Shown piece by piece: positions 17,770 through 21,354 of a DNA stretch of 64,000 nt (its first letter is position 1; every line of letters starts with the position of its first letter). The notes beneath the pieces were generated by a model. That model saw nothing but the letters and a program-made list of their open reading frames with translations, was not told the origin of the DNA and did not search any database. A program made the position numbers and the translations under genes. This DNA is from Cytobacillus oceanisediminis 2691 (GTDB lineage: Bacteria; Bacillota; Bacilli; Bacillales; Cytobacillaceae), in contig NZ_VEEP01000003.1 of assembly GCF_007678455.1 (NCBI RefSeq), positions 449,569-513,568 on the forward strand, read 5' to 3'.

Positions 17770-18642
17770 CTAAATAAAGAGTTTCGCATCTTTAGGCAGA
17801 TTCCTGACTTTCAACAAGTACTCCCTCATTTTACGCTCATATTCAATGGGATACTGATACCCCAAACTCTCCCCGACTTCCTGGGCCAGACGGCTGAACA
17901 GGTCTGCAGTCCTGAAAAGGGCTACCCAGTTTTCTTCAATCCCGGCTCCTGCATAAGTCCCCTCCAATTCTGACCATGTTTCGGGGTCCAGGTAACGTTT
18001 GAACCAGCGCCCGAACTTGTTGGGATTTATTGACCAATCATGTTTGACCCCAAGATACCATTCAATTGCTGGCTGAAGGTAATCGAATCGGATCACATTG
18101 TCGAGCATGAATTTCGCAAAATACAGTTCATCACGCCAGAGGCTGTTGGCTACGTATGCCGTATCTCCCCAAAAACTGTTGATGATCTCAGCGTAGATTT
18201 CTTCCGAGGGCCTCTTTGTGATAAAAGCCTTATAGGAAGGAGCGGGCATTCTTTTAGTGTAATCATCCTTGTCCAATAGGACTTTATAGCCATTATCATA
18301 TTTTGCCGGCAGCTCTTTAAGCTTTGTGAGGCTCTTTATGAAATCATTGGTTGATATCTGAAAATCGATTTTTGTGCCATCCTCGTAAAGGACTAGACGC
18401 GTACGCCAGTTCCCGTCCTGCAAAACCACTTTCTTGATGAGCGTACCAAATTGATCGAGCCAGCCATCGTCACTCATAAAACCATCTAAATCATCCACAA
18501 AGATTTCGAAATCATAGTCGGTAAATAAGTCTGTGAAAGCGTGCGGGTTGGCTCGGGAACTTGTCATAAGAACTGTGCGTATATGATCATTTCGCTGTGC
18601 CCAATCAACCAGCAGGCTCAATATTTCTTTTTCCTGTTTCAT
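17770..18642 (-). CDS. aadK: aminoglycoside 6-adenylyltransferase (AadK-like)
   Basis: 290 residues, close to B. subtilis AadK. The ANT(6) signature is TSSRANPHAFTDLFTDYDFE (27-46), with Asp42 and Asp44 as likely metal ligands, followed by conserved WRTRLVLYEDGTKIDFQIS and a helical C-terminal half. ANT(6) enzymes adenylylate streptomycin; chromosomal copies in Bacillus give low-level resistance. GGGAG lies 11 nt before the ATG. It is not linked to any mobile element here, so it looks resident. Confidence 0.88.
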   Translation of the reverse strand: MKQEKEILSLLVDWAQRNDHIRTVLMTSSRANPHAFTDLFTDYDFEIFVDDLDGFMSDDGWLDQFGTLIKKVVLQDGNWRTRLVLYEDGTKIDFQISTNDFIKSLTKLKELPAKYDNGYKVLLDKDDYTKRMPAPSYKAFITKRPSEEIYAEIINSFWGDTAYVANSLWRDELYFAKFMLDNVIRFDYLQPAIEWYLGVKHDWSINPNKFGRWFKRYLDPETWSELEGTYAGAGIEENWVALFRTADLFSRLAQEVGESLGYQYPIEYERKMREYLLKVRNLPKDAKLFI

Positions 18643-18848: not shown

Positions 18849-19040
18849 TGATTTCCCCCTCTAAAAAATACTATTTATTATACTTCTTTTATAATTTGAT
18901 TTATCCTTTAATTATAGAGAACAAGCTTTTAATTATTTGAATTCGCCACCCCATTTTGATACAGTTTTAAAAAGGAGTAGTTTTCCCTATATCTGTGTTG
19001 TTAATTACAGTAAAGTATATATTGAGGAGTGTACAAAGAA

Positions 19041-19874
19041 ATGGAATCAACTTTTAACGAAAAAGATATAACCGATTTCATTAAAACAAATAGAGACCAG
19101 TTTGAAAAACAATTATTATCAGAAGCAGTGAATGTTGCTACTAAAATTCACGAAATCCTTCAAAAGGGAAATATTGACCTGTTAAAGAACGCTGAAAAGT
19201 TGATTGTCTACATAGTTGAGGAGCAAGAAGATGAACTGATCGCTTTTGCTGAACAAGAAGGGATCGCCTGGGCAGAACATTCTTTGACTGTTGCCTTCAA
19301 ACTAGAATGGATTCAGGCCATCCGCCGGACGTTATGGCAATTTCTGAACCAGTATGACCAATTGCATAATAATGATACCGATCGCGAGGATTTTTTCCAG
19401 CTGGAGAAAAAGATCAATGACCAGGTAGACCAATTCTTGAATACCTTCTTCTTAACTTATACAAAGTACAAGGATGAACTGCTCAATTCACAGCGAAAAT
19501 TGGTTGAACATCTCTCCGTTCCTATTATCCCTGTCAGCGCTACTGTTGCCGTACTTCCGCTAATCGGGATGATTGATGATTACAGAATGCAGATTATTGA
19601 AGAAAAGGTCCTGATGGATATATCCAGGCTAAAAGTCCAGACCTTGATCATGGACCTATCCGGAATTGCGGATATGGAAATGAACGTCATCGACCATTTC
19701 CAAAAAGTCTTGAATGGTGTTGCCATGATGGGCTCTAAGGCTGTCATAACCGGGATGCGCCCTGAGCTTGTAAGGAAAATGATCCATACTGGAATCAACC
19801 TGGATCAAAAAGCAGATACCAGGGGAACATTACAGCAGACTCTTAGGTCTTATCTAGATAGCGAACCAAAATAA
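19041..19874 (+). CDS. RsbR-type STAS domain stress protein
   Basis: About 277 residues. The N-terminal half (about 1-150) is helical and globin-like in outline, as in the RsbRB/RsbRC/RsbRD group; the C-terminal STAS domain (about 155-270) starts LSVPIIPVSATVAVLPLIG and contains LIMDLSGIADMEMNVIDHF. These proteins form stressosomes with RsbS and RsbT that lead to sigma-B activation. The ATG at 19041 is used, with GAGGAG at 19024-19029. Neighbour of a redox chemoreceptor; partners RsbS/RsbT are not in the window. Confidence 0.85.
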   Translation: MESTFNEKDITDFIKTNRDQFEKQLLSEAVNVATKIHEILQKGNIDLLKNAEKLIVYIVEEQEDELIAFAEQEGIAWAEHSLTVAFKLEWIQAIRRTLWQFLNQYDQLHNNDTDREDFFQLEKKINDQVDQFLNTFFLTYTKYKDELLNSQRKLVEHLSVPIIPVSATVAVLPLIGMIDDYRMQIIEEKVLMDISRLKVQTLIMDLSGIADMEMNVIDHFQKVLNGVAMMGSKAVITGMRPELVRKMIHTGINLDQKADTRGTLQQTLRSYLDSEPK

Positions 19875-19884
19875 AGACACTAAA

Positions 19885-19919
19885 AGCCCCTTTGTTTTTG
19901 ACAAAGGGGCTAGCTTTTT
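19885..19919. terminator. bidirectional terminator
   Basis: Stem AGCCCCTTTG / CAAAGGGGCT (19885-19894, 19902-19911) followed by AGCTTTTTA, between convergent genes. Confidence 0.85.
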
Positions 19920-19923
19920 ATGA

Positions 19924-21258
19924 TTAATGCACTCTCTGATCTAACTCAAGCAGAAGCTTATTATTTTCCTCAATATCGCTGTTGATGCCATCGATCTCTG
20001 AGGAGATATTCAATTCCTGTTGTTTAACTGAGCCAATTTTCCGCTGTTGGGCTTCTTCACGGTCAGTGATGTTTCGCAGACGGTCCGCCAGGGAGGTACT
20101 CTCGTCCTTAATGGACAGTATGCCAGACGAGATCGTTTCCAACTCTTTGTTTTGTGATTTTACCTTTGCGTCAATTTGCTGCATCAGCCCGTCAAAATCA
20201 TTAAATGAAGAGAAACTTGAACTGATTTTATTTTCGATTTCTTCCAGTTGTGTGGAAATGTTTTGTGACGCATCTGAAGAAGCAGCTGCCAGTTTGCCAA
20301 CTTCTTTTGCCACCACTGAAAAACCTTTCCCATGCTCCCCCGCTCTTGCCGCTTCAATGGAAGCATTCAAGGCAAGGATTTTTGTTTGGGCAGAAATTGA
20401 AGAAATAGTCGAGCTGATGCTTCCAATCGTTTGTGTCAAACCCACTAATTCCTTCAGCAATTCAGATGTTTGTTTCATATGGTCAGAGGCCTGTCTATTA
20501 TCCTCTATGACAGCAACAGAGCCATCAACTACCTTATCAATTGCCTCACTGTATCGATTGATCTGTGATTCCATTTGCTCAAATACAGAAAAGAATTGTG
20601 ATAACGCCTCTTTATTCTGAGTTAGCTGATTTTCCAGTTCATGAATGGACGATAGATTGTGTTTGACACTGGTTTGAATTGTATGGGTAGATAATACAAT
20701 ATCCTGGAAGGTCTCCCTCATTGCTCCAACAAAAACAGCAGCGTTCCCGGTACCCTCCGGTTCCTCCCCGGCTTCGCCAGGAAGACGGAATTCATCCACT
20801 TTGCTGAAAATCTCTTCGAGCGCCGGGCGATCGAATTGCGAATCCCCGATATAGCTGTAACGGATGACATGATCTTCATCCAAAATATAGGTGCTTGGAA
20901 TTGCAATCCTGAAACTATCCCATTTAATAGGGACAAATACTTCATATCTCTTAATGACTTGCCTGGATTCATCAGACAAAATCGGAATTTTTATTCCTTC
21001 TTTGTCTACATACGATTGGATTCCTTTTAAATTCTGGCCTGCAATACCCAATACTTGAAGCCCTTTTTCTTTTAGGAAATCATAATGTTCATTCAGCTGG
21101 ACCAGCTGATTCCGGCAGTTCGGTCACCATGTGCCTCTTAAAAAGACAAGAATGACCGGCTGGCCGGAAAAATCAGATAAACTATATTTTGTATTATTTG
21201 TCCCCTGCAGCGTAAAATCCGGTGCTTGCTTGCCTACGTTCAATCCTTTATTGGCCAA
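19924..21258 (-). CDS. redoxin-chemoreceptor fusion, probable selenoprotein (UGA at active site)
   Basis: Read through one TGA (21124-21126), the frame from the TTG at 21258 (GAGGAG upstream) gives 444 residues. Residues 1-150 are an AhpC/TSA-type redoxin: [12 protein letters not shown], then FLRGTW-UGA-PNC, where related proteins have Cys-Pro-x-Cys, so residue 45 would be selenocysteine with Cys48 next to it. From about 165 on is a methyl-accepting chemotaxis signalling coiled coil with its conserved tip ([31 protein letters not shown]). There is no membrane helix, so it would be a cytoplasmic redox-sensing receptor. A tight hairpin follows the UGA. A gene caller treating UGA as stop would start near 21051 and lose the active site. 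The alternative is a nonsense mutation in a Cys codon. Confidence 0.78.
21093..21109 (-). promoter_or_regulatory. candidate bacterial SECIS hairpin
   Basis: Fourteen nt after the TGA, the minus strand holds a 7-bp perfect stem TCAGCTG / CAGCTGA closing a GTC loop. The apical loop begins with G and starts 22 nt after the UGA. Both fit the bacterial SECIS rules as I recall them (stem of at least 4 bp, G within the first two loop bases, loop 16-37 nt from UGA). Confidence 0.6.
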
Positions 21259-21354
21259 TATAATCTCTCCTCTATCTATATCATGCAAAAGCTTGGCTCA
21301 CAGATTATTATCGGCCTAACTAGAACTTTGTTAAAGCTATAACTCTCTAAGAAG

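Follow-up and report, generated by a model that had tools for sequence, protein, structure and literature searches.

The window (the whole 64,000-nucleotide stretch of DNA that was analysed) carries on its minus strand, from 21258 to 19924, a frame of 444 residues that joins a redoxin to a chemoreceptor. Its sole in-frame stop is a TGA at codon 45 (21124-21126), in the active-site context RGTW-U-PNC. An initial annotation, made from the DNA letters, had described a single TGA breaking this frame at the place of the first redoxin cysteine, with the redoxin continuing in frame on both sides. Translation bore out the single TGA, the codon aligns with the first cysteine of ResA, and the Pfam redoxin matches span it; the observation of a Sec-type UGA in a redoxin-chemoreceptor fusion is thus confirmed. 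The features of the locus are as follows.

19924..21258, minus strand: predicted selenoprotein gene, a redoxin-chemoreceptor fusion; 444 codons plus stop, TTG start
21124..21126, minus strand: UGA codon 45, read here as selenocysteine (U45); TGA in 11 of 11 full-length fusions
21115..21117, minus strand: codon of C48, the sole cysteine and the partner of U45 in U-P-N-C
21093..21109, minus strand: bSECIS-type hairpin, 7 bp, loop GTC
20836..21237, minus strand: redoxin domain of AhpC/TSA type; the Redoxin model covers residues 8-141 and AhpC-TSA residues 8-134
19930..20748, minus strand: helical region, residues 171-443, putative coiled-coil arms of the chemoreceptor (Pfam; low-confidence structure model, mean pLDDT 65)
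20071..20490, minus strand: MCPsignal domain, residues 257-396, including the hairpin tip (Pfam and tip comparison)
21265..21273, minus strand: ribosome binding site AGAGGAGAG, conserved in the fusions of the genus
21308..21334, minus strand: TTAAC-N14-GCCGATAA, a sigma-D-like promoter motif whose TTAA and GCCGATAATA are the same at all 9 aligned loci of the genus
19885..19911, minus strand: intrinsic-terminator-like hairpin 3' of the gene, also positioned for the convergent STAS gene

The TTG start at 21258 and the ribosome site AGAGGAGAG upstream of it are both kept in 8 distinct fusions of the genus. Mechanical ORF calling returned a 375-aa ORF starting at 21051, downstream of the active site, as had been foreseen for stop-aware callers; standard ORF calling conceals such receptors because the start is set after the active site. 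A receptor-only isoform starting at M180 was also considered and was rejected, as no conserved ribosome site precedes M180 in the 8 genus sequences. Terminator-like hairpins in the region numbered 2, against 1.6 expected from shuffling, and an Rfam search around the gene gave 8 sub-threshold matches, none of them a SECIS. The neighbouring genes are a STAS-domain regulator (19029-19874, plus strand), RsbR-like by eye and convergent with the fusion, and a streptomycin adenylyltransferase-like gene (17770-18642, minus strand; Adenyl_transf, 260.7 bits). An ORF similar by eye to the STAS gene adjoins the receptor-less copy of genome G011.

The redoxin domain was matched by the Pfam models AhpC-TSA (residues 8-134; 113.1 bits, cut-off 26) and Redoxin (residues 8-141; 95.7 bits, cut-off 26.6). 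Its nearest solved relatives are ResA, an extracytoplasmic and membrane-anchored protein, and peroxiredoxins of the BCP type. ResA (PDB 3c71 and others) gave the best match (E 6.7e-18); the first cysteine of its C-x-x-C aligns with U45 and the second with C48, so that ResA has cysteine where the fusion has Sec. The same position is cysteine in the homologue of genome G494 (CHSC) and in a broken copy in Virgibacillus oceani. The BCP/PrxQ-type peroxiredoxins (PDB 2ywn, 2cx3) match over the full domain, with their catalytic cysteine aligned to C48; U45 occupies the position of the threonine in their T-x-x-C, a signature that the fusion therefore lacks. The separate resolving cysteine of 2-Cys peroxiredoxins is likewise absent, there being no cysteine besides C48 in any of 10 distinct fusions. 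U45 and C48 are in fact the sole Sec/Cys residues in 10 of 10 distinct fusion proteins; the pair is therefore the only Sec/thiol switch available, and any redox sensing by Sec/thiol chemistry would use it. In NCBIfam no family exceeded its cut-off among the best 25 of 35 matches for the whole protein or among all 18 for the redoxin part. Weak whole-protein similarity was seen to SelL_rel_redox (61.6 bits, below the curated cut-off of 120) and peroxi_PrxU (36 bits, below 270). In a structure model of modest quality (mean pLDDT 65, pTM 0.34), used for the order of elements only, U45 immediately precedes a helix at 46-57, and the chain is helical nearly throughout from residue 171.

The chemoreceptor part was identified by the Pfam MCPsignal model (residues 257-396; 95.7 bits, cut-off 34.6). 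Together, the MCPsignal domain and the hairpin tip are the marks of a methyl-accepting receptor; control of CheA and methylation are predicted. The highest mean hydropathy over 19 residues was 0.98, hence no membrane helix; the chemotaxis coiled coil without membrane helix proposed in the initial annotation is in agreement with both values. The tip resembles those of five other receptors in the source genome, and its residues N298, E302 and R305, which we take to hold hub roles in the receptor tip, are invariant in 9 aligned fusions. After the tip the fusion has 137 residues, compared with 155 in four of the five other receptors; with such a short arm it may stay apart from the main array. Open frames with a CheW domain numbered four in the source genome (697, 305, 169 and 165 aa), and to judge from length and domain they probably encode CheA-like (697), CheV-like (305) and CheW-like (169 and 165) proteins. 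TlpD-type CZB receptors and HemAT are cytosolic receptors that sense by zinc-Cys or haem. They likewise couple a cytosolic sensor to an MCP signalling hairpin, but unlike the fusion have no selenoredoxin sensor; conversely, no Pfam match to a CZB or globin domain was obtained in the fusion.

The sigma-D promoter consensus is TAAA-N15-GCCGATAT. Upstream of the gene, all 9 aligned loci of the genus share an unchanged TTAA-N15-GCCGATAATA amid variable intergenic DNA, and the site in the window has 2 mismatches to that consensus; the strict form of the motif occurs once in the window. The fusion of G163, at a different locus, is preceded by TTAAC-N15-GCCGATAT. In a comparison that left out locus L058, the sigma-D-like motif was absent from the G224 fusion and from 8 of 8 stand-alone redoxins. 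Sites at least as good by mismatch count were found at 4 of 13 other receptors (one of them perfect; 14 loci were taken, of which all except L066 yielded a gene) and at 6 of 71 control ORFs. We regard the motif as good, though not conclusive, evidence for placing the fusion in the motility (sigma-D) regulon.

The gene was found in 11 of the 21 genomes of the source genus, Mesobacillus: as nine full-length fusions, which include the source genome and one conspecific, and in two reduced copies (G009 and G011). M. selenatarsenatis SF-1 (G007, locus L043) has the fusion. In every full-length fusion of the genus a single TGA stands in frame, always at the same position. Further full-length TGA fusions were recovered from G163, which belongs to a different genus of the family (65% identity; 13 of 193 family genomes matched), and from G224, which belongs to a different family (60% identity; 17 of 397 order genomes matched). 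The alignment of homologues that had been proposed as a check thus returned TGA at codon 45 in 11 of 11 full-length fusions, nine from the genus and two from other genera, comprising ten distinct sequences; a sequencing error at the TGA is excluded by these ten. Stand-alone redoxins in the order have TGA in seven further genomes and Cys in one (G494), and G161 has a piece of the receptor at the end of a contig. Of 398 genomes sampled across the phylum, only two, both of the source genus, gave a match at 1e-25. The candidates scored after the first look were the best 8 per genome in the family and the best 4 in the order and phylum, and a Cys-type fusion could for that reason have been missed. 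In the plasmid collection the query was nowhere covered to 80%, and the best 10 of its 1624 matches hit the receptor part.

Ratios of dN/dS against the window gene, taken separately for the segment upstream of the TGA, the remaining redoxin and the receptor, were 0.019-0.141 in 17 of 21 within-genus comparisons, dS being saturated in the other 4; by these values the fusion gene is judged to be under purifying selection on both sides of the TGA. Decay among relatives, which the initial annotation had named as a sign against its reading, was encountered in part: G294 (Bacillus sp. CECT 9360) has a decayed copy and G009 has lost most of the receptor, whereas nine genus genomes have the gene intact. 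In G009 (L039/L046) an internal deletion takes the receptor hairpin and spares the piece with the last residues (ENNKLL...), and we regard this copy, from its structure, as a decay intermediate. G011 has a selenoredoxin without receptor at the same locus; the redoxin can therefore work alone. No convincing receptor remnant follows it, and this genome may have lost the receptor part or may never have had it, either history being compatible with the forks of the tree inside the fusion clade. Two stand-alone UPNC selenoredoxins from another family of the order (L054 and L058) have a cytochrome bd-like sequence, assigned by eye, downstream.

Following the UGA by 21 nt is the hairpin TCAGCTG-GTC-CAGCTGA, with 7 bp, a triloop with G first and an energy of -8.3 kcal/mol. 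The bSECIS rules set out in the excerpted part of PMC13188914 are a loop of 3-9 nt, a stem of 4-16 bp, a G in the first two loop bases, a spacing of 16-37 nt and an MFE of -7.5 or lower, and the window hairpin agrees with the four bSECIS rules of that excerpt. Among the 2893 TGAs on both strands of the window, a hairpin of the same class followed 60 when a stem of at least 6 was asked for and 55 with at least 7. When the count was confined to TGAs lying in frame and flanked on each side by 44 or more open codons, 1 of 42 had such a hairpin, namely the TGA of codon 45.

Over 20 gap-free sequences the stem is paired in 90.7% of 140 cells. Four of the seven pairs show changes on both sides, a number equalled by 7 of 500 shuffles, and three are invariant; the covariation score was matched by none of the 500 shuffles, and further pair types in the stem were not unusually many (175 of 500 shuffles had as many). 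Slid pairings were at most 38% paired, though a slide of -1 gave a covariation score of 0.189 compared with 0.205. A G occupies alignment column 25, which is the first or second base of the loop, in all 20 sequences. The hairpin at SECIS distance described in the initial annotation is upheld by its spacing, its agreement with the rules and its covariation. Part of the covariation signal, as we read the alignment, is relatedness, and pair 18-34 varies along with the amino acids; the cleaner signal is given by the inner synonymous exchanges from CAGCTG/CAGCTG to CAGTTA/CAACTG. Pairing failed in 5 of 20 sequences at the outermost pair and in 8 of 20 at the innermost, and the isolated hairpin attains -7.5 kcal/mol in half of them, 10 of 20. 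When stretches of 54-60 nt were folded to minimum energy, the hairpin formed at 10 of 12 loci, but among 9 further distinct loci at only 3.

The source genome (4.9 Mb, rated 100% complete) was found to hold the entire set of genes whose presence had been suggested as a check: selA (568 bits, cut-off 268), selB (362 bits, cut-off 242), selD (397 bits, cut-off 125), itself with an in-frame TGA, and tRNA-Sec in two gene copies, both having the anticodon TCA. selA exceeded its cut-off in all 21 genomes of the genus; in G020 it falls into two matches, and in G001 and G009 it has in-frame stops, defects that would be due to assembly errors or to decay of the Sec pathway. In 37 further genomes, selA was above cut-off in 11 of 11 with the gene or a U-redoxin (intact, decayed or as a fragment) and also in 22 of the 25 that gave no match, and this co-occurrence discriminates little because so many of the latter carry selA too. 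The single open Cys homologue belongs to G494, whose selA match was sub-threshold at 72.6 bits. A second redoxin with an in-frame TGA lies elsewhere in the source genome (L023:1090-1611; G000:C332, about 26.6 kb); it is a putative lipoprotein with the site GVG-U-DFC, has the hairpin GCAGCT-GGTCG-AGCTGC 20 nt past the UGA, and is likely another selenoprotein. Both selD and this redoxin bear hairpins similar to that of the fusion.

On this evidence, which supports the interpretation given in the initial annotation, UGA45 almost certainly codes for selenocysteine, and the fusion is probably a cytosolic selenoprotein chemoreceptor, in which a selenium redox switch is read by CheA; we infer that it signals to CheA through the receptor hairpin. 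SelB, tRNA-Sec and the downstream hairpin would direct decoding of UGA45 as Sec. The selenolate of U45 would then react with an oxidant, either a hydroperoxide or a protein or low-molecular disulfide, after which C48 would form a selenenyl-sulfide with U45, within or between the subunits of a dimer, to be reset by thioredoxin or another thiol. Peroxide, disulfide stress or something else may be the stimulus. The state of the switch would pass through the short linker into the coiled-coil hairpin, whose tip would control CheA via CheW, resulting in redox taxis. When selenium is absent, translation would terminate at the UGA after 44 residues, and the receptor would therefore be made only in selenium-replete cells. 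The host, a relative of Bacillus, appears to make a chemotaxis receptor with selenium in place of sulfur at the reactive site of its sensing end, and the cell may steer by redox, and only when selenium is available.

A different scenario is that the coiled coil only targets a selenoenzyme, a peroxidase or disulfide reductase, which shields the receptor array and does not signal. Stand-alone U-redoxins of the same kind in eight of the genomes found (G011 and seven others) suggest that the domain can function by itself, and the tip is somewhat diverged, with QTKILALN for QTNLLALN and EVGKLA for EVRKLA; however, the invariance of the three tip residues in the aligned fusions and the motility-type promoter motif speak against mere targeting, which we consider unlikely. 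Quite improbable is a redox relay outside chemotaxis with some other partner, for example the adjoining STAS-domain regulator. The convergent position of that gene and the persistence of a similar ORF where the receptor part is absent would fit such a relay, but the G163 fusion lies in a different neighbourhood, and the source genome encodes CheA-, CheW- and CheV-like proteins.

Two further alternatives concern the codon. If the UGA were a true stop, a receptor-only product would be made from an internal start and the redoxin would be a relic; an ATG does occupy codon 180 in all 8 distinct sequences of the genus that were compared. Strong purifying selection on the upstream codons and the redoxin, the fact that none of the 11 fusions has TAA or TAG in place of the TGA, and the SECIS covariation all contradict this reading, and we regard it as very improbable. 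An error of sequencing or assembly at codon 45 has the rarity of the arrangement alone in its favour, and the recurrence of the TGA in 11 genomes makes its probability negligible.

If the selenoprotein chemoreceptor is accepted, it might be a selenium-gated behavioural sensor, in which Sec serves sensing and not metabolism. Since UGA decoding would tie synthesis to selenium and the Se-S switch would read cytosolic redox, a lineage that counts M. selenatarsenatis among its members could conceivably take its bearings from selenium status as well as from redox potential, a proposal that we put forward tentatively and hold to be more doubtful than the receptor itself. M. selenatarsenatis is a species that respires selenate. 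We know of no earlier signalling-receptor selenoprotein. Selenocysteine in the sensor of a signalling receptor makes it testable why cells pay for it, be it for speed, reversibility or resistance to over-oxidation, and the fusion would add a sensor-domain class to the chemoreceptors.

The chemistry itself has precedents. Selenoproteins of the Prx-like thiol:disulfide oxidoreductase type (PF00578, UxxC/UxxU) are already known (PMC9312934, Table 1), and UxxC members also appear in the excerpted part of PMC13188914. The fusion shares with them the AhpC/TSA domain and the U-x-x-C site; its PF00578 domain with UPNC places it in this class, and the corresponding activity is predicted. These proteins are classed as oxidoreductases, and neither the table of PMC9312934 nor the excerpted part of PMC13188914 shows a chemoreceptor fusion. 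The same table of PMC9312934 has 87 prokaryotic selenoprotein families (16 verified, 71 predicted), mostly redox or metabolic, and no chemoreceptor. PMC9312934, PMC13188914 and PMC12013277 nowhere use the words 'chemotaxis' or 'methyl-accepting' in their main text, nor does PMC13188914 contain 'PF00015', 'MCP' or 'sensor'. Among the matches listed, the open-access literature contained no selenoprotein chemoreceptor, in keeping with the earlier impression that a Sec redoxin-chemoreceptor design had not been described. TonB-dependent receptors are transporters. One of them is the nearest selenoprotein in name within the excerpted part of PMC12013277. We rate the fusion as known selenoredoxin chemistry placed in a new role and architecture.

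The two tRNA-Sec genes of the source genome are near-identical and flank about 10.5 kb outside the window (G000:C332:395489-406162; L063, L015 and L016), the copy at 395489 having one extra mismatch in the acceptor stem. Genes in this interval encode an OLD-family nuclease, matched by PADLOC Old at 208 bits, and a DitA-like protein at 62 bits, along with two ORFs that resemble transposases, by eye of the IS110 kind; the interval looks like an island inserted at tRNA-Sec.
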